The notes beneath the pieces are model-generated. The model worked only from the letters and a program-made list of their open reading frames with translations, was not told the origin of the DNA and did not search any database. From a virus: a stretch of DNA of 38,190 nt. The DNA lies in the IMG/VR virus record IMGVR_UViG_3300009527_000002, positions 1 through 38,190 of that record, one strand, 5' to 3'. The translations under genes and the position numbers were made by a program. This document shows positions 3,331-36,896 of the stretch, in pieces. Numbering within the stretch: the stretch's first letter is position 1; each line of letters begins with the position of its first letter.

Positions 3331-5759
3331 TCGATTTCTCGGCGATTTCCACGGCGGCGCTTGATCGCGCCGAGTCGCTGCTCTCGCAATGGTTGCCGGC
3401 GGGCAAGCGTTCGGGCCATGAGTGGGTGTCGGTCAATCCAATGCGCTCGGATGCCAATCCGGGGTCTTTCTCGGTGTCGCTCACTACCGGCTCCTGGGCG
3501 GACTTCGCTACCGACGACAAGGGTGGCGACCTGGTAGCGCTGTACGCCTATCTCTTCACAGCAGGCGATCAGGGCGCGGCAGCGCGCGATCTGGCCGATC
3601 AGCTTGGCATCGCGCCGGCGGCTGGCGGTGAGCAAGCACGCCCGACGAAGCGCGGTGAGACGAAGCGCCCGGAGGCCGAGACGACGGCGGCGAAAGCCGA
3701 GACGCCAGCTTCCTCGGCGGAAACGAAGCCGCCGACGCGGCGAACGCTGTGGGCGCCGGTGCTGCCGGTACCGGACGAGGCAGAGTATCCGCCGAAAGCG
3801 CACGTGGTGCGCGGGGCGCCGGAAGCGCAGTGGGCGTATCGCGATGGTGGCGGGCGGCTGCTTGGCTACATCTGCCGATTCCGCACGTCGGACGGCGGCA
3901 AGGAAGTGTTGCCGCTGACATGGTGCCGGCATGACACTTCCGGAAAGCACGGCTGGCGCTGGATTTCGTTCGCTGCGCCGCGCCCGCTGTACGGTCTTGA
4001 TCGCCTGGCGGAACGGCCCGAGGCGACGGTGCTGCTGGTCGAGGGCGAGAAGTGCGCCGATGCGGCGCGCGATGCGCTGCCCGATCTGGTCAGTGTGGCG
4101 TGGCCGGGCGGCAGCAAGGCGGTCGACAAGGCGGACTGGTCGCCACTGGCCGGCCGCAAGGTGGTGCTGTGGCCGGATGCGGATGCGCAGACGCACAAGC
4201 ACACGGGGGAGCTGTTGCCGGAGAGCCTGCAGCCTGGATCGCTGGCGATGCAGCGGATTGCGGTCATTCTGGCCGGCCTGGGCGGCAAGCTGTGGCGGGT
4301 GCGCATTCCGCCGCCAGGAGAGAAGCCGGGCGGCTGGGACGTGGCCGATGCGATCGCCGAGGGGATGGCTGGCGAGGCCCTGGCGACCTGGGTTCGCGAG
4401 CGGCTGGAGGTATGTGCGGGCGAGAGCGCGCCGGCGGCGAAGGCGGATCACCGGTCAGCGGTTGGGGAAGAGTGCACCGAGAGGGAAGGCGAGGCGCCGC
4501 CGAACTGGCGACTGGCGTTGTTGCGGACGCAGAAGGGCGAGATTGCGGCGTGCCTGTCGAATGTGCACGATATCCTGCTGAATTCTCCGGAGTGGTCCGG
4601 CGTGCTGGGGTTCGACGAATTCGCGGCGCGGACGATGAAGCGGGCACCGGCGCCGTACTTCGGCGGCGAGGTCGGCGAGTGGACGGGTGTGGATGATTCT
4701 CGCACGGGGATGTGGCTGACGCGGAAGTTTCGGTTCTCGGCGCCTACGGCGCTGGTGGCGGAAGCGGTCGAGACGCTGGCGATGGGGTTTGCGTATCACC
4801 CGGTGCGGATGTGGCTGCAGGGCCTGCCGCGCTGGGACGGGACGGACCGGCTGGAGTTCTGGCTGTGCGATTGCGTCGGGGTGGCCGATACGCCCTATGC
4901 GCGCCTGGTGGCGAAGTGGTTTTTCATCGGGATGATCGCGCGGGTGATGCGGCCGGGGGTGAAGTTCGACTACTGCCTGGTGCTCGAAGGATCGCAGGGG
5001 AAGCGCAAGTCGTCGGTGGCGGCGACGCTCGGAGGGCCGTGGTTTGGAGATACCGACCTCGATCTGCACAATAAGGATTCGATGTCGGCCTTGCGGGGCA
5101 AGCTGGTCTATGAGTTCCCGGAGATGGGCTCCGTGACGCGGGTGGAAGCGAGCCGGCAGAAGTCGTTTCTGTCGCGCCAGTTCGACGAGTTCCGGCCGGT
5201 GTATGGACGGCGGGAAATTCGGCTGTCCCGGCAGTGCGTGTTCATCGGGACGACGAACGAATGGGAGTGGAACAAGGACCCCACGGGCGGCCGGCGGTTC
5301 TGGCCGGTGGAGGTGGGCGACATCGACATCGATGCGCTGGCGGCGATTCGCGAGCAGCTGTTCGCGGAAGCGCTGCAGCGCTTTGAGGCGGGGGAGAAGT
5401 TCTGGCCGGATGCTGCGCAGCAGAAAGCGCTGTTCGACCCGGAGCAGCTGGCCCGCGAGCAGCAGGAGAGCTTGATCGATGCGCTGCATGACTGGGTGTG
5501 GACGCAGGTGGCGGACTTCTCGGTGGCGGATGCGGTGATGGACGGGCTCAAGCTCGATGCGTCGAAGCTGACGCGGGACTTGACGACGCGCGTTGGCATC
5601 GCTCTGCGCAAGCTTGGCTGCGAGAAGGTCGAGCGAAGGAATGGAATGATTCGGTTCTGGTACAAGCCTCCCGTGCGAAAGGAGGCCACGTCGACGGCCG
5701 TGGATTCGTCTTCGCAGCTCGCGCAGCCTGTCTCGGGAGGTCGTCATGTCCCGTTTTGA
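3327..5759 (+). CDS. Primase-helicase with TOPRIM and VapE domains
   Basis: The 810-residue replication protein starts at GTG 3327, overlapping the preceding stop by 4 bases. Residues 1-95 look like a primase N-terminal domain (SVNPMRSDANPGSF, then FATDDKGGDLVALY) but without zinc cysteines. After an Ala/Glu/Thr-rich linker (about 95-140), a TOPRIM-like region has VLLVEGEKCADAA near 234 and VVLWPDAD near 281. From about 490 the VapE (virulence-associated E) superfamily-3-type ATPase follows. Its Walker A is LEGSQGKRKSS (about 552), with arginine where the second glycycl position of GxxGxGKS is usual, then VYEFPEM near 592, GTTNEW near 641 and the arginine pair GGRRFWPV near 654. It probably primes and unwinds DNA at the repeat array just downstream. 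Confidence 0.85.
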   Translation: MIDFSAISTAALDRAESLLSQWLPAGKRSGHEWVSVNPMRSDANPGSFSVSLTTGSWADFATDDKGGDLVALYAYLFTAGDQGAAARDLADQLGIAPAAGGEQARPTKRGETKRPEAETTAAKAETPASSAETKPPTRRTLWAPVLPVPDEAEYPPKAHVVRGAPEAQWAYRDGGGRLLGYICRFRTSDGGKEVLPLTWCRHDTSGKHGWRWISFAAPRPLYGLDRLAERPEATVLLVEGEKCADAARDALPDLVSVAWPGGSKAVDKADWSPLAGRKVVLWPDADAQTHKHTGELLPESLQPGSLAMQRIAVILAGLGGKLWRVRIPPPGEKPGGWDVADAIAEGMAGEALATWVRERLEVCAGESAPAAKADHRSAVGEECTEREGEAPPNWRLALLRTQKGEIAACLSNVHDILLNSPEWSGVLGFDEFAARTMKRAPAPYFGGEVGEWTGVDDSRTGMWLTRKFRFSAPTALVAEAVETLAMGFAYHPVRMWLQGLPRWDGTDRLEFWLCDCVGVADTPYARLVAKWFFIGMIARVMRPGVKFDYCLVLEGSQGKRKSSVAATLGGPWFGDTDLDLHNKDSMSALRGKLVYEFPEMGSVTRVEASRQKSFLSRQFDEFRPVYGRREIRLSRQCVFIGTTNEWEWNKDPTGGRRFWPVEVGDIDIDALAAIREQLFAEALQRFEAGEKFWPDAAQQKALFDPEQLAREQQESLIDALHDWVWTQVADFSVADAVMDGLKLDASKLTRDLTTRVGIALRKLGCEKVERRNGMIRFWYKPPVRKEATSTAVDSSSQLAQPVSGGRHVPF

Positions 5760-26113: not shown

Positions 26114-27730
26114 TTACCCCGCTCCGTACTCCTGCGCCATCCACGCCCCGGTCTTGCGGTCAATCCGCAGCATTCTCGGCGTGCCCCCCTTGGCCATCAG
26201 CACCAGGTCGATATGCCGGCTGCCCGCCTCGATCGTGATACCGTAGTGATAGATCACGATGCGTGAAAACGTCTCCGCCACGAGATCGCGTATCTGCATC
26301 CTCGCGTCGTAGTCGAGCGCCATGGCGCCAGTGACCAGGTGTCGCCATTGTTCGGCGATCGCCGGCAGATCGCGCCGACTTCTGCGCGCCAGGTCCGCTT
26401 CGGCAAGCGATTCCTCCTTTTGTGTGGCCACGATCTGGGCTTCGAGGTCGCGCGCCGCGCGGACAAAAGAAATCGGCGTGGCGCCGCCATCGCCGGCGAT
26501 CAGTGCGGCCGTCACGCGCTCCAACTGGTCGCCAAGATCACTGCCACGTTGCCGCGCTGCCGCGATCGCCGCCCGACCCGCGGCTAGATGATCGCCGGAT
26601 CCCTGCAGCGAAGAAAGATTTAGTTGGTCGCTGCAGAAAGCTAGGAGGGCTCTCTCGATCGGGGCGACCGACACGCTTCCGCCCACTTCGCAGCCGATCC
26701 TCGTCCTGGTGCCGCTACAGAGAAGACGCCGATGCCCGTCCTGTGGCGTCCCGTCCGCTTTCCTATTCCTGCCGAGAAGCGTCTGTCCCACGACGGCCGC
26801 GCCGCAGTATCCGCAGTGCAAGAGGCCTAGCCCGGTGATCAGGCCGGGATACTCGCCCTTGCCCTTGCGCTTGACTCTGCCCAAATTGGCCGCCTGCAAC
26901 TGCTGATACTCGGCTGGGCTGAGCAGGGCAGGGTAGTAGCCGTCCAGTGCCCATTCCTCGCCATCGATCGAGAGCGTCTTGGTGCCTATCAAGTCCGGCC
27001 GCTTGAGCGCCTTGTACAGCGTCCCAGACGTCGTCGGCACTTGGTCCGCCTGGTATCCCTGTTCGCGCAGCGCGCGCATGACGCGATAGCCGCCATGGCC
27101 GGCGAGAAACAGTGCGATCGCCGCGCGCATCGGTTCGGCACGCTCCGGAATCAGTTCGAATCCGGTCCCCGTCCATCGCACCCACTTCGGATCCTTTCCA
27201 TTGCGAATCACACCGCGAAAGGTGCCCGCCTGCCAAGCCAGGCACTGCCGCCGGATCGCCGCCCGCACGCGCTTGCTCTTGGTGTCCGACTCTTCGTGCG
27301 CGCGAATCATCACCAGCAGCGAATACACTAGGTCCATGGGCTGCGCCTTGAGGCTCGCGCGGTTGTACTCCCGGCCGTCGCTGGCGGTGACCACCGTGAT
27401 GCCGGCGTTGATGACCTGCGCCAGTTGCGCCTGGGCCAGCACCGGCTCTGCGCGCGACAGCCGGTCAAGCCCTTCGACGACCAGCACCGATCCGGGAGCG
27501 ATCAGCTTGGCGTCGACAGCGCGCAGGAAAGCGCCCAGTGCGCCCTGGGTGATGTGCCGCTGGTGGTAGGCGGATAGCCCCTCGTCGCGCAACGAAAGCG
27601 CCTCATCGAGCACCATTCCGCGGTCCGCCGCCCAGCGCTGCGCGTAAGCTGTCTGGCGATCGGCCGAACTGCTAGCCGCCTGCTTCGGGTCGGAGAATCG
27701 GAGATAGCTGTATACTTTCGGATTGTCCAT
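26114..27730 (-). CDS. int: Large serine recombinase (phage integrase)
   Basis: The 538-residue enzyme has an N-terminal resolvase catalytic domain with YSYLRFSDPKQ (Ser13 the nucleophile) and EGLDRLSRAEPVLAQ near 115. A recombinase domain follows (VIRNGKDPKW, RAEPMRAAIALFLAGHGGYRV), then a zinc ribbon with cysteines in LHCGYCGAAVVG (about 305) and LLCSGTRTRIGCEV (about 340), then a coiled-coil region. It inserts the phage at an attB site and, with a directionality factor not identified here, excises it. No strong Shine-Dalgarno is present. An inverted repeat (27711-27765) spans its start codon region. Confidence 0.95.
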   Translation of the reverse strand: MDNPKVYSYLRFSDPKQAASSSADRQTAYAQRWAADRGMVLDEALSLRDEGLSAYHQRHITQGALGAFLRAVDAKLIAPGSVLVVEGLDRLSRAEPVLAQAQLAQVINAGITVVTASDGREYNRASLKAQPMDLVYSLLVMIRAHEESDTKSKRVRAAIRRQCLAWQAGTFRGVIRNGKDPKWVRWTGTGFELIPERAEPMRAAIALFLAGHGGYRVMRALREQGYQADQVPTTSGTLYKALKRPDLIGTKTLSIDGEEWALDGYYPALLSPAEYQQLQAANLGRVKRKGKGEYPGLITGLGLLHCGYCGAAVVGQTLLGRNRKADGTPQDGHRRLLCSGTRTRIGCEVGGSVSVAPIERALLAFCSDQLNLSSLQGSGDHLAAGRAAIAAARQRGSDLGDQLERVTAALIAGDGGATPISFVRAARDLEAQIVATQKEESLAEADLARRSRRDLPAIAEQWRHLVTGAMALDYDARMQIRDLVAETFSRIVIYHYGITIEAGSRHIDLVLMAKGGTPRMLRIDRKTGAWMAQEYGAG

Positions 27731-27765: not shown

Positions 27766-27810
27766 GGTATAGTGTCGTTAGGATGCCCGAATTAGTCTGT
27801 AAATATACTA

Positions 27811-27838
27811 TTGCAATTGCGCCCATTGGGCGTATAAT
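27811..27838 (+). promoter_or_regulatory. Sigma-70 promoter of the AcrVA2-like operon
   Basis: TTGCAA (27811-27816), a 16-base spacer and a perfect TATAAT (27833-27838) point rightward into the gene at 27901. It is among the best promoter matches in the window. The spacer contains a perfect inverted repeat, so expression is probably repressed from within the promoter. A strong AAGGAG (27889-27894) sits 6 bases before the first gene. Confidence 0.75.
27820..27832. promoter_or_regulatory. Operator inside the accessory promoter
   Basis: CGCCC-ATT-GGGCG is a perfect inverted repeat with 5-bp arms, lying between the -35 and -10 boxes, where a bound protein would block RNA polymerase. The last gene of the operon (29627-29836) encodes a small HTH protein, a natural candidate for binding here in the manner of anti-CRISPR-associated (Aca) repressors. 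This is inference. Confidence 0.55.
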
Positions 27839-27900
27839 TTGATTGTAGGAATCAATCTCCCGAGCCGGCGGAACCCGGTAAATCTCGGAAGGAGATCGTT

Positions 27901-28638
27901 ATGAGCCACTGGACAATCGTACAGGACTATCACGCAGCCAACGCCATTGAGTGCTTCGAGCACAATGGAGTTCCCGTCGTAATCCGTCGTGTCGGCACCT
28001 ATGCCGAGGCTACAGACGGACAGCGCAGTACACGCGACTGCCCACACATCACGATCAACATCGGAGCAGGATACCCCACGCAAGGAGATGGCGGCTGGAA
28101 CAGTACGTCGTCGGTCGTCGCTGTTGGGGAGCGAGGGGAAGACGGCCGATCGCGGACACTGCAAATCCCGTTCGCGCCCACCCCGAGAGCATCCGAGGCG
28201 CAAATGGTAGACGAGGCCAAGCAAATGCTCGATCAAGCGCTATCCTCACTGCGCGGCCTCGACGCTGCGTATGCGACGGCCAGCGAGCGATGCGCTGGAC
28301 TGGCTCAGTACCAAGAGCCGCTATCCCGCAGCGGATATGAGGACGCCTGCGCGGCGATGGGCGTCAGTCCTCTGTCCGATGCAGACTGCCAAAGCTACGG
28401 CGTGAGGTACGGGGATTTCAGCTTCCCGGAGTACGCCCCGGAATACATTGTCCTCATGTCGCTCTCGCACAGCAGGCTGCTCACGCTCGATGCAGAGGAA
28501 GCCATCAAGACGACGCGGCCGGCTGCAGTGAATCGCGCCCCGCAGAAACAAGGCCAGCTTTGGGAGCCTTGCCAGTGCGGACGCGAACCGATTTACATGC
28601 CACTGCATCTGTGCGCCAACTGCTGGCCGCAAGCATGA
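27901..28638 (+). CDS. Unknown protein with C-terminal zinc ribbon, first gene of acr-like operon
   Basis: The 245-residue protein has a beta-rich N-terminus (NGVPVVIRRVGTYAEA and CPHITINIGAGYPTQGDGG), a helical middle (ASEAQMVDEAKQMLDQALSSLRGLD) and a C-terminal zinc ribbon-like segment with cysteines in EPCQCG and LCANCW. It lies directly behind a strong promoter and ribosome site and is coupled by ATGA to the AcrVA2-like gene. I do not recognise it. Its company makes it a candidate for another anti-defence protein or an mRNA/ribosome-binding partner. This is guilt by association only. Confidence 0.75.
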   Translation: MSHWTIVQDYHAANAIECFEHNGVPVVIRRVGTYAEATDGQRSTRDCPHITINIGAGYPTQGDGGWNSTSSVVAVGERGEDGRSRTLQIPFAPTPRASEAQMVDEAKQMLDQALSSLRGLDAAYATASERCAGLAQYQEPLSRSGYEDACAAMGVSPLSDADCQSYGVRYGDFSFPEYAPEYIVLMSLSHSRLLTLDAEEAIKTTRPAAVNRAPQKQGQLWEPCQCGREPIYMPLHLCANCWPQA

Positions 28639-29630
28639 TGGATCTCCCGCGCCCCAAACACCACCTGGTCACCGCCGGGAAGCTCTACCCCGGCGCGTGG
28701 CGCCAGTACGATGCGTTCCGACAAGATCGCGGGCGTGATGGACTTCCGGACTGGCCGGAGTGGTGCTACTGCCCGATGGCCGGGTCCTACGCGATTGTCT
28801 CCGGAGGGGGGGCTAACCGGGTACCGCCTCACCTCATCGGCGACGTCGCTCGCCTGTCTGCCATCGCCGCATGGCGTCCGACGCAGGGCGTCTACCGGTT
28901 TGATGCAGACCTGCTGTCTAGCCTGCTCGACACGCCGCTGACCGGCGATCTTCCGTGCGATGTGCTGCATCGCCTGCCGGAGTGGTGCGTGTACGTCGAG
29001 ACACCAGGGCGGCAGTGGGGAAGCCAGTCCATGCACGGATTTTTCGCGCACCTGGAGTGCGATGCCAACACCGGCCGCGAGGAGCTGCGGCTGCTGGTCG
29101 ACGCAGAGGACAGCCTGGTGCCGATTCCAATCCACCTCGGATCATGGCCGCTCGGCGAAGCAGTGGCGCGAGCACTGGACGTCTCGCGAGTCCATGCCGT
29201 GGCCGCCGGCACGACACTGCCGGCCGGGATCAACCGCGACGTTCTGGAAACCGCAGAGCCGCTGGTATCCGTCCTGCTTTATCTTTGCGCCGACGATGCT
29301 GAGATCGGCGACGGAACCGCCAGGCCAACCATCCCGAAGGCCAAGCGAACGAAGCAGGGATGGCGGCTGTTCCCAGCTGACAAACTGACGGTGTGGGATG
29401 TCGGCGTCAGGCTTGGCGCCGCTCTGCGGAAATCGCAGGATCGATCGCAAGGCGATGGAGAAGGCACACACGCGCGGCCGCGTGCGCACATCCGCAGAGC
29501 GCACTGGCACACGTTTCTTGCAGGAGCAGGTAGACAGGAGCGTCGTGTGAAGTGGCTACCGCCTATCCCGGTCAATGTCGAAGATCAGGAGAAGTTGCCG
29601 GCGGTAATTCGGTCGGTAAAAGAAAAATGA
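28635..29630 (+). CDS. AcrVA2-like anti-CRISPR family protein
   Basis: The 331-residue protein shares, by memory comparison, the landmarks of the Cas12a inhibitor AcrVA2 of Moraxella bovoculi mobile elements. These are a segment AAWRPTQGVYRFD (about 78; AWRNTLGIY in AcrVA2), PEWCVYVE (about 115; PDWCVYVD) and C-terminal HIRRAHWHTF (about 284; HIRRGHWHGY), followed by a VKWLP segment. Spacing and total length (about 322 in AcrVA2) also agree. AcrVA2 is reported to lower Cas12a production, not just to bind the enzyme. The gene is in an operon with ATGA overlaps on both sides and ends beside an HTH gene, as acr genes often do. Homology is likely; the target in this host is unknown. Confidence 0.75.
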   Translation: MMDLPRPKHHLVTAGKLYPGAWRQYDAFRQDRGRDGLPDWPEWCYCPMAGSYAIVSGGGANRVPPHLIGDVARLSAIAAWRPTQGVYRFDADLLSSLLDTPLTGDLPCDVLHRLPEWCVYVETPGRQWGSQSMHGFFAHLECDANTGREELRLLVDAEDSLVPIPIHLGSWPLGEAVARALDVSRVHAVAAGTTLPAGINRDVLETAEPLVSVLLYLCADDAEIGDGTARPTIPKAKRTKQGWRLFPADKLTVWDVGVRLGAALRKSQDRSQGDGEGTHARPRAHIRRAHWHTFLAGAGRQERRVKWLPPIPVNVEDQEKLPAVIRSVKEK

Positions 29631-29836
29631 ACATACCTGATCCGCCGAAACCTGAGCAAATACGAATCGCTCGGAACGCCGCAAATATTTCACAAACTGC
29701 CGCAGCAAATCTTGTGTATAGCAGATTGCGGACCTGGCAGCATTGGGAAAATGGAGACCGGGAAATGCACCCTGCGATTTGGGAGCTGTTCAATATTAAA
29801 TGCTCAGCGATTGAAAAAACCGCTGATTGCAAATGA
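29627..29836 (+). CDS. Small HTH protein, Aca-like
   Basis: The 69-residue protein has an XRE-type HTH: PEQIRIARNAANISQTAAANLV (about residues 9-30) followed by TWQHWENGDREMHPAIWELF. It overlaps the AcrVA2-like stop by ATGA. Small HTH proteins encoded right after anti-CRISPR genes are typically autorepressors of the acr promoter, and a perfect inverted repeat sits inside the promoter at 27820-27832. It is less GC-rich than its surroundings. The specific Aca family is not identified. Confidence 0.7.
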   Translation: MNIPDPPKPEQIRIARNAANISQTAAANLVYSRLRTWQHWENGDREMHPAIWELFNIKCSAIEKTADCK

Positions 29837-29843
29837 TATTGAA

Positions 29844-30125
29844 CTATCGGGATTCCGCCGTCGGTGACTCGCTGGCAATGCCGGGGATCGGCCCGGAGAG
29901 CACCACCAGGTGTCCTTGACCAATCAGGAAATTCTTGTAGCTGGCGATGGCCACCAGCCACGCCTCGCGCGCCACGTCCGGAGAGGCGTCGACCACGGCT
30001 CCGACGTCGTCGACGATCGCAAGCTTTCCAGGTCGACCGTCTGCAAGCTTGACCGTCAAACCGCTGTGGATCCTGGCGCTGATTTGCGCGGTCGCCAGGG
30101 TGCCGGTTTTAATTGGGCCGATCAT
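29844..30125 (-). CDS. Small unknown protein, end of leftward operon
   Basis: The 93-residue protein starts at ATG 30125 (AAGGA about 6 bases upstream; ATGA overlap with the gene before). It has LTVKLADGRPGKLAIVDDVGAVVD and AREAWLVAIASYKNFLIGQGHLVVL. No known motif was seen. It is the last gene of the leftward operon and converges on the HTH gene with only 7 bases between. Confidence 0.6.
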   Translation of the reverse strand: MIGPIKTGTLATAQISARIHSGLTVKLADGRPGKLAIVDDVGAVVDASPDVAREAWLVAIASYKNFLIGQGHLVVLSGPIPGIASESPTAESR

Positions 30126-30508
30126 GTTTGTCCTTCCGTTGCGGCATTCTTCGGCCACTTCATGTCGTCAAAGACTCCTAATCCTCGTGACGACAGGCGC
30201 CAGCCATTCTTTTTCGATCTTAGCTCGTATGGCTCCACACAGAATTCCGGTACCGGCAGCCAATACTTTGTCGGAAGGATGCACGCTGTTAGCTTTCCGA
30301 TCAGCTCATCATTGAAAAACTCAACGGCTAGTTTGCCGTTGGATGCGGAGAGTATCTTGCCGATCCTCCCGGCATCCGGATGCTCTTTCCCGTCGCTGGA
30401 AACGAGGTAGATCGGGAGCATGACAAATTTGCCGATCGCGAACAGGATGGCAGCGCGATCCTGAAGTTTGACCCGCTGTGCAGTATTCTTGTGACCAGGC
30501 ATATTCAC
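30122..30508 (-). CDS. Unknown phage protein
   Basis: The 128-residue protein opens with a basic segment (HKNTAQRVKLQDRAAIL), then MLPIYLVSSDGKEHPDAGRIGKIL and LAVEFFNDELIGKL, and ends with charged residues. A second ATG two codons in is an equally good start. It is coupled by ATGA to the following gene and overlaps the preceding one by 4 bases. Function unknown. Confidence 0.6.
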   Translation of the reverse strand: MNMPGHKNTAQRVKLQDRAAILFAIGKFVMLPIYLVSSDGKEHPDAGRIGKILSASNGKLAVEFFNDELIGKLTACILPTKYWLPVPEFCVEPYELRSKKNGWRLSSRGLGVFDDMKWPKNAATEGQT

Positions 30509-31516: not shown

Positions 31517-33331
31517 CTACACTCCTTCCTCGCCCAAATTGGGCAGTGCTTCGGTGACTGGTTCTGCCACCGGCGCGGTGCTGGCGTCAGACTCGATGGA
31601 TTCGAGCGTATTGCCACGATCGATCCACGCCTTGACCCAGTTGGGCATTCGTCCTCGTCCAGTCCAGGACTCTCCGAGCGGGCTGCGGTACTTCACCTGG
31701 CGGGCCGAAGTCGCTGGCTTCTCCTTCGTCGATATCGTTTCGAGCGGTCGCCCCGTCTTTTCTGCCGCAATCTCTCGGCGCACGTGGGATGGGACGATGC
31801 CCAGGTGTTCGGCCATATGCGTTAGCACCAAGGGTGGAGCATTGACGGAGAATTCGTCGACCTGCAAATCAGTGGAAACCGCCATTTCGATCGAGAGCAG
31901 GAACAGTTCGGCCCGATGGGCTATTGCAATGCGTTCGGACATGGCGTGGCACTTCTCTTGATACGACTTGCCGGGGCCGTCCTGGATCATTTGCAGGCGA
32001 GCTAGATAAGGCAGGTTGCCCCACATCGTGTCGACGATGAGGCGGTCGATCGCCATCCTGGAAGCCGAGTAAGCCAGCGTCTCGGGCGCGATGTCGTTGG
32101 CGCGGCGAAAGACGTTCGCCCACAGCCGATTGCGGAAGCAGGTCTCCTCGGCGACCTTCTCGGCTATTTTGGAGCGCTCGTTTTGCCGGTTCTCGGAAAC
32201 GTTCGGACTCGGCAGGGCCCCGGCCGCGACCAGGGCATCCCGCAGGGCGTATCCGCGCATCGATTCCACCAGCTTGCCGCTGCGCGTGTCCTCGACAAGG
32301 GTGACTTGCAGCCGGTCGCCAAGGGCTTCCCGGAAGGTCTTGCCGATGTGGTCACCTTCGTAGATCCGGCTATCGACATCGACGTAGTCGTCTCCGACAA
32401 GGGTATGTCGTGGACCGTTGGGCGCTATCTTCTTCGCGGCATCTCCGTAAATCACTTCCATCCCATTCGCGCGGCCCGCATCGGCCAGGCGTTCCAGGTG
32501 CGCTTTCTTCTTGAGCGCGAAGCAGTCGAGGTCCGTGCAGATGTCCGATTCCGATGGGTCGTCAAAAATCTCCGGCTGATTCCCTGTGCGCTTTGGGCAG
32601 CCGTAGCAGCTTCCGGCAGCCGGTAGCAATGCCGGGTCGTCGGGTGGGAAAGGAGCTTTGTACAGGTCGAGCATGTAGCCGGTGCGGATACGATACTGCA
32701 CGTGACGCACGGTGACCGACTCCGCCTCCGTCTGGCCCGGTGGGAGTAATTCGTGAATCAGTCTGGCCTGCAGCTGGTGCGTTGCCACACGGGCGACCAG
32801 CAGCGCTACCGACGCAGTGATTCGGCAGGAGAGGAAAGCGTCGCGCGCATCGCTGCCAAGATCGGAGAGCTTGAGCCTGCCATACACGTAGGCCTTGCTC
32901 TTGCCGATCTTTTCCGCCACCTCCTCCGCGGAGTATCCGTGTGTGCGCATCATCTGGCGGTAGCCATCAGCTTCTTCGAGCGGGTGCAGATCGGCCCGCT
33001 GCAAGTTTTCGATGATCTGCAGTTCCAGGGCTTCGCGGTCGCTGAGGTCCGCAATCTTGACGTCGATCCATTCGAGGCCGGCAGCTTTGGCGGCGCGCCA
33101 GCGGCGTTCTCCGGCGACGATCTCGTAACTCGGAGATTCCGCCCGGCGCGCCTCCTCGGGCGACATGCTTGCATGTCGCACCAGAATTGGCTGCAGTACG
33201 CCGTGCTGCTTGATGCTGTCCGAAAGCTCGCACAACGCCACCGGGTCGAAATGCTTGCGGGGGTTCGTTTGGCTCGGGCGGATGCTGCTGACCGGAACGC
33301 TGCGGGTGTTGGAAATCGTATGCGTTGTCAT
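31517..33331 (-). CDS. ParB-like protein fused to an H-NS DNA-binding domain
   Basis: The 604-residue protein starts with a ParB/Spo0J domain: VSSIRPSQTNPRKHF, GERRWRAAKAAG near 72, ENLQRADLHPLEEADGY near 113 and an HTH region SAEEVAEKIGKSKAYVYGRL near 133. A zinc-like segment follows (CYGCPKRTG near 243; CTDLDCFALKKK near 266). Near residue 545-575 the H-NS C-terminal signature appears: VKYRSPLGESWTGRGRMPNW. ParB proteins bind parS-like sites and slide on DNA using CTP. H-NS domains bind AT-rich DNA. No ParA gene is present, and the phage has an integrase, so a regulatory or DNA-organising role is likelier than plasmid partition. Confidence 0.85.
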   Translation of the reverse strand: MTTHTISNTRSVPVSSIRPSQTNPRKHFDPVALCELSDSIKQHGVLQPILVRHASMSPEEARRAESPSYEIVAGERRWRAAKAAGLEWIDVKIADLSDREALELQIIENLQRADLHPLEEADGYRQMMRTHGYSAEEVAEKIGKSKAYVYGRLKLSDLGSDARDAFLSCRITASVALLVARVATHQLQARLIHELLPPGQTEAESVTVRHVQYRIRTGYMLDLYKAPFPPDDPALLPAAGSCYGCPKRTGNQPEIFDDPSESDICTDLDCFALKKKAHLERLADAGRANGMEVIYGDAAKKIAPNGPRHTLVGDDYVDVDSRIYEGDHIGKTFREALGDRLQVTLVEDTRSGKLVESMRGYALRDALVAAGALPSPNVSENRQNERSKIAEKVAEETCFRNRLWANVFRRANDIAPETLAYSASRMAIDRLIVDTMWGNLPYLARLQMIQDGPGKSYQEKCHAMSERIAIAHRAELFLLSIEMAVSTDLQVDEFSVNAPPLVLTHMAEHLGIVPSHVRREIAAEKTGRPLETISTKEKPATSARQVKYRSPLGESWTGRGRMPNWVKAWIDRGNTLESIESDASTAPVAEPVTEALPNLGEEGV

Positions 33332-36624: not shown

Positions 36625-36774
36625 GGCAAGACTCCAACGAAGCGTTTTGTCATCCGCTTCCCCGCTGCAAAACGGGTGGGCGGAACCGTGCGGGTTTGCA
36701 GACCGGTCGTTGGCACCGGCAGGGCTCGCGCCCTCCCACACGGCCCGCCCATAGGGCTTGCCATGCGACGGACG

Positions 36775-36798: not shown

Positions 36799-36823
36799 TC
36801 GTCCGCCAACGAATTCCGGGCTG

Positions 36824-36858
36824 CAAAACCCGCGTCGCTGATGTGCAGCGACAGCGGG
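36824..36858 (-). terminator. Long hairpin with T-run in the antirepressor leader
   Basis: CCCGC-T-GTCGCTG and CAGCGAC-GCGGG form a 12-bp stem with a single bulge and a 5-base loop, followed on the minus strand by TTTTG. It is the strongest hairpin I found in this operon. Confidence 0.6.
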
Positions 36859-36896
36859 AGCATACGCCCGGCCATTCGGGAAAGTCAAGACCTGCT

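Follow-up and report, generated by a model that had tools for sequence, protein, structure and literature searches.

The gene at positions 28635 to 29630 (plus strand) of the viral record IMGVR_UViG_3300009527_000002 encodes a new AcrVA2-family protein, and it is carried as mobile-element cargo inserted beside a serine integrase. The whole 38,190-nucleotide stretch of this record that was analysed is referred to here as the window. Judged by sequence, FinQ of the IncI1 plasmids belongs to the same family. The best explanation of the locus, which we hold with about even confidence, is that an AcrVA2/FinQ-family cargo protein, expressed from an auto-regulated operon, silences the mRNA of one rival gene.

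The gene is read in one open frame from ATG to TGA, and its product has 331 residues. An earlier note on this DNA had taken the product for an AcrVA2-like anti-CRISPR homologue, based on three spaced landmarks. All three are present where they had been placed (AWRPTQGVY at residues 79-87, LPEWCVYVE at 114-122 and HIRRAHWH at 285-292), and the corresponding signatures (W-R, P-x-W-x-x-Y and HxRRxHWH) are near-invariant columns among 151 family members, all kept in the window protein. The proposed homology was then borne out by sequence, profile and predicted structure. PHROG_6160, whose PHROGs entry reads unknown function and names neither AcrVA2 nor FinQ, matched residues 19-316 (E=9.5e-51), and a single-sequence phmmer search of the PDB returned AcrVA2 (7ci1_A/7ci2) as the sole meaningful protein (E=1.3e-21, residues 61-314 of 331). 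An AlphaFold2 model of the window protein, for which an alignment of 127 relatives served as input, had a pLDDT of 92.3 and a pTM of 0.90. It retrieved 7ci2 in Foldseek (E=1.3e-17) and was aligned to 7CI2 by VIA-align with Z 24.3 and an rmsd of 3.4 over 281 residues, and besides AcrVA2 there was no other match of note for the model with either program. Ribosome hibernation factor protein Y, with a Foldseek E of 0.1 and a TM of 0.35 or less, was not significant and was not used. Low-complexity matching was not involved in the profile and structure comparisons, and no model in Pfam, NCBIfam or PADLOC matched the protein.

AcrVA2 of Moraxella bovoculi (7CI1, 7CI2) is thus alike in fold, in the three motifs, in its near full-length alignment and in size (about 322 aa), whereas the two proteins are only about 20-28% identical and AcrVA2 lies on a distant branch of the tree. 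Another putative homologue of AcrVA2 has already been published from a phage that infects a proteobacterium, namely ORF43 of the Shewanella phage vB_SbaS_Y11, which we liken to the window protein by its description; that phage has no integrase genes, and a type I-E system was noted in a Shewanella genome (PMC10846135).

Since the window has a direct terminal repeat of 113 bp, it represents a complete phage genome. The phage is temperate, with genes for terminase, portal, protease, capsid, tail, serine integrase, ParB-like, HNH and anti-repressor proteins. The large serine integrase (26114 to 27730, minus strand; Resolvase/Recombinase Pfam domains, phrog_95) adjoins the cargo. The cargo slot itself extends from 27791 to 29906, between the integrase and the gene at 29844-30158, and is absent in a related phage (L280), which has 142 bp at the empty site as opposed to 2,116 bp in the window; the two phages share 69-70% DNA identity on both flanks and no homology inside the slot. 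Because the prophage contigs of integrase relatives typically end near the integrase start codon, the cassette would be located at the prophage edge. In 18 of the 55 viral contigs longer than 25 kb, the family member is no more than 4 kb from a contig end, with 9.4 expected (P=0.003). The family gene also adjoins the integrase in the isolated phages JCL1032 (Lactobacillus) and CFP3 (Pasteurella).

No near DNA match to the window phage was found among phages. A related phage is a prophage of Azoarcus indigens (L002, L024, L207), whose TerL is 73% identical and which carries a family member as well. The proteobacterial host that had been presumed in the earlier note is likely. Elsewhere in the window, a C4 antisense RNA and its a1/b1 target (36672-36756 and 36813-36865, minus strand) were matched at the Rfam gathering thresholds within the anti-repressor gene region, an arrangement like the immunity region of P1/P7, and a ParB-like protein encoded at 31517-33331 (minus strand) bears a C-terminal H-NS domain (PF00816).

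Three tightly overlapping genes form one operon in the slot, with the acrVA2-like gene in the middle. The first, orf245 (27901 to 28638, plus strand), has no assigned function, contains a C-terminal CxC..CxxC motif and gave no match in Pfam, PHROG or PADLOC; its stop overlaps the start of the acrVA2-like gene. The third gene (29627 to 29836, plus strand) encodes a 69-aa helix-turn-helix (HTH) protein, and its start overlaps the acrVA2-like stop (ATGA). This small protein matched NF040522 (VC1465/XafT family) weakly, with E=8.7e-8 and under the model's own cut-off, and it is a candidate Aca-like autoregulator related to VC1465/XafT. Upstream of the operon lies a sigma-70-like promoter (27811 to 27838, plus strand; TTGCAA-16-TATAAT) that matches 10 of 12 consensus positions. 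Its spacer contains the perfect palindrome CGCCCATTGGGCG (CGCCCA-T-TGGGCG; 27820 to 27832, plus strand), a candidate operator, and is followed by a second inverted repeat, TTGATT/AATCAA (27839-27855). The HTH protein probably represses the operon at the promoter palindrome.

This layout resembles acr-aca operons, in which a small DNA-binding gene shares the operon with the acr gene, in that the small HTH gene overlaps the acr-like gene and a palindrome lies in the promoter. The regulators differ within the family, that of the window being VC1465/XafT-like and those of other members ribbon-helix-helix-like or other HTH proteins. The same cassette is found in Vreelandella rituensis (L092), where the AcrVA2-like gene is preceded by a homologue of orf245 (36%), and a homologue of the HTH gene (52%) is placed as in the window. 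Among 46 small ORFs downstream of other members, Pfam matches were most often to HTH-type families (HTH_31 in 10, HTH_3 in 8), and several further small downstream proteins resemble ribbon-helix-helix proteins by eye. Overlapping small downstream genes were counted in 17 of 146 cases at family loci and in 37 of 592 in the background; this enrichment is modest, about twofold, and the overlap alone was rejected as evidence for an acr-aca operon.

Between the promoter and orf245 lies a conserved leader of about 47 nt (27857 to 27903, plus strand) that includes the ribosome-binding site of orf245. Its core, GGCGGAACCCGGTAAATCTCGGAAGGAGAT (27867-27896), starts the operon and stops just before the orf245 start. 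The family loci were searched with a model, R1, built from 11 leaders; the window leader, itself a training sequence, scored 59.5 bits (E=1.4e-11). Altogether, R1 detected 26 copies in 22 AcrVA2-family loci, the window and 21 others. Besides the window, leaders linked to AcrVA2-family operons were noted at L001, L002, L004, L005, L006, L008, L016, L020, L022, L023, L036, L043, L049, L060, L077, L092, L103 and L384, and some loci carry two copies. At least a dozen of the R1 copies lie outside the training set (47 bits in L005 and 41 bits in L103, for example). All 26 are on the same strand as the family gene and end at a start codon, and the first genes behind them are mostly unrelated to each other. 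In L023, near-identical promoter-plus-leader copies at 4276 and 6133 are located on either side of the AcrVA2-family gene unit; such paired copies could possibly serve as a substrate for cassette exchange by recombination.

The leader was largely confined to loci of this family. When R1 was run on 1.53 Mb of phage DNA from elsewhere (terminase and integrase relatives, plus F tra), its top match had E=0.017, and in 25 whole carrier genomes, with 150 candidates per genome scored, at least 8 matches were found in 6 genomes, all at the family locus. An exact 18-mer of the window leader type occurred in one other viral contig, that of an AcrVA2-family phage, and four contigs contain an exact 20-mer of a second leader type; three of them are AcrVA2-family phages and the fourth is L383. 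In L383, a short phage fragment, the second-type leader (about 4368-4460, reverse complement) heads a different gene near a putative integrase, and this gene is a candidate for counter-defence cargo. When 72,556 plasmids were searched blindly by BLAST with the second-type leader, the top match was a plasmid of Ahniella affigens (E=0.2, not significant alone), in which the leader runs up to the start of a gene; 1.4 kb downstream, the plasmid encodes the C-terminal part of a protein of the AcrVA2 family. No R1 match was found at the AcrVA2 locus (L181) or at the FinQ locus (L019); in L181, a viral contig locus in which the AcrVA2 region is identical, no overlapping HTH gene was seen either.

The second leader type, the GGTGAGTA variant, contains a CCGGC/GCCGG stem whose pairing holds in every sequence; 3 of its 5 pairs show compensatory changes, a level that 0 of 500 shuffles reached. 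This covariation suggests that the GGTGAGTA variant of the leader is structured. The folding energy of single leaders was no lower than that of shuffled sequences (z about 0 to -1.5), and a second stem around the Shine-Dalgarno sequence was discarded, with 3 pairs and little covariation. The leader had no meaningful match in Rfam. It may have a part in the control of the operon that it heads.

FinQ is a fertility inhibitor that was sequenced in 1989 and whose mechanism is poorly understood. FinQ of the IncI1 plasmid R621a (WP_275542888) was reached from the window protein by tblastn (E=6e-10), matched the family profile (E=3.9e-50) and was aligned to that profile by hhalign with E=4e-39. FinQ in turn retrieved AcrVA2 (7ci1) from the PDB (E=1.8e-16), and BLASTP between AcrVA2 and FinQ gave 2e-19 (74 bits, 25% over about 300 residues). 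Forty-nine positions are conserved in at least 80% of the 151 members; AcrVA2 keeps 31 of these and FinQ 31, and the 24 kept in both include the HxRRxHWH block. FinQ retains W..R, P..W..Y and HIRRGHWH..WLPPVPVN; it differs in a longer N-terminus and in the segment LPSWSIYVS, which is without the acidic residues of PEWCVYVE. Its gene lies beside trbABC of a conjugative plasmid, and FinQ has been reported to target the F tra operon. No open-access paper that treats FinQ and anti-CRISPR together was found; the key AcrVA2 papers were outside this search, so the link may have been noted already.

AcrVA2 has been reported to cause translation-dependent decay of cas12a mRNA via the nascent LSKT peptide (review PMC13131331; meeting report PMC12908700), and FinQ to cut short the transcripts of the F tra operon at several sites, which was described as Rho-independent transcription termination and not mRNA decay (PMC8744291). 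By these reports, both proteins lower a specific transcript. LSKT was rejected as the recognition peptide of FinQ, being absent from the first 35 residues of all F tra proteins; if FinQ is AcrVA2-like in mechanism, it should therefore read another peptide. The tree places the window protein among relatives from proteobacteria, with that of L022 as its closest neighbour, and AcrVA2 and FinQ form long, separate branches. The three proteins are about 3.6-5.3 substitutions per site apart, and because of this divergence the mechanism may have changed among them.

The reading that we favour is as follows. The cargo operon would be expressed from its own promoter next to the integrase, with the HTH protein probably repressing its own synthesis. 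The window protein would recognise one specific nascent chain as it is made on the ribosome, in the way described for AcrVA2 and Cas12a, and would thereby lower the mRNA of one particular rival gene, belonging either to a host defence or to a competing element. This target need not be Cas12a. The suggestion in the earlier note that another effector or nuclease might be targeted gains strength from the kinship with FinQ, an inhibitor of F-plasmid transfer, and widens beyond nucleases.

The CRISPR content of the bacterial genomes that carry relatives bears on which rival gene this could be. Cas12a was found in 0 of 74 such genomes, which are the hosts of relatives and not the window phage's own host; the same search recovered Cas12a from 7 of 395 Bacteroidia, which served as the positive control, and from 1 of 369 Gammaproteobacteria. 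Clostridia (0 of 196) were unusable as a control. As Cas12a is rare, the result indicates that carriers need not have Cas12a, and not that they avoid it. The gene cas1 was detected in 30 of 50 carrier genomes, and Azoarcus indigens, the host of the related phage, has a type I-C locus and no Cas12a. That the window protein counters a different host defence or CRISPR type, such as type I-C in Azoarcus, is accordingly a possibility to which we give perhaps one chance in a few; the acr-aca-like operon also agrees with it, while the 20 carriers in which cas1 was undetected, many of them metagenome-assembled and possibly incomplete, speak against it.

Relatives were found across many phyla, at 80 or more loci in bacterial genomes, and also in about 80 viral contigs; in sampled gammaproteobacterial genomes a member was present in 3 of 369, one of these being the carrier used as centre. 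The plasmid search gave 533 records, mostly from E. coli, Salmonella and Shigella, and among the matches listed the enterobacterial plasmid records are annotated FinQ. Non-FinQ relatives also reside on conjugative plasmids, one of them near transfer genes. On a plasmid of Thioflavicoccus mobilis (L021, 1538-5014), brxL of a BREX system is followed by a small overlapping gene and then by an AcrVA2-family gene. Inhibition of a competing plasmid's conjugation in the manner of FinQ would fit these plasmid-borne members, but many members are in phages, where host defence is the main pressure, and the window has no transfer genes; we consider this reading unlikely. Similarly improbable is a lysogeny or superinfection-exclusion gene that acts on the transcripts of other phages: the prophage-edge position beside the integrase would suit it, and FinQ illustrates that the family can act against competing elements, yet the family is common to plasmids and diverse bacterial genomes. 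Finally, a working anti-Cas12a protein, which would block Cas12a production as AcrVA2 does in a true host with type V-A CRISPR, is quite doubtful and in its specific form unsupported, for despite the homology to AcrVA2, the reported activity of AcrVA2 on diverse Cas12a orthologues (PMC13131331) and the partial impairment of Cas12a2 by AcrVA2.1, the known target is absent from the genomes carrying relatives, Azoarcus indigens included, and the Moraxella protein sits on a distant branch; of the earlier note's claim of kinship with an inhibitor of Cas12a production, the kinship stands and the anti-Cas12a function is improbable.

Given the presence of FinQ in the family and of leader-headed operons in many mobile elements, the AcrVA2/FinQ family looks like a general toolset for silencing rival genes and not an inhibitor of Cas12a only. 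More tentatively, AcrVA2 and FinQ might constitute one superfamily of sequence-specific, nascent-peptide-guided mRNA silencers that phages and plasmids direct against many rival genes; the 'termination' ascribed to FinQ would then be translation-coupled mRNA decay, and a large branch would be controlled by an RNA leader that is dedicated, structured and not described before, and that heads neighbouring cargo genes as well. Since the family occurs in genomes without Cas12a, the targets of most members are probably different ones still to be discovered, among which there may be new defence systems. Among the defence-related proteins of prokaryotes, AcrVA2 is reported to be the first that destroys an mRNA through recognition of the nascent protein. 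The place of FinQ in its family allows FinQ to be tested for the same nascent-peptide mechanism, and many such silencers may be present in bacteria and their elements. With the conserved leader, further operons of this kind can be sought, and it suggests that counter-defence cargo is under shared control.
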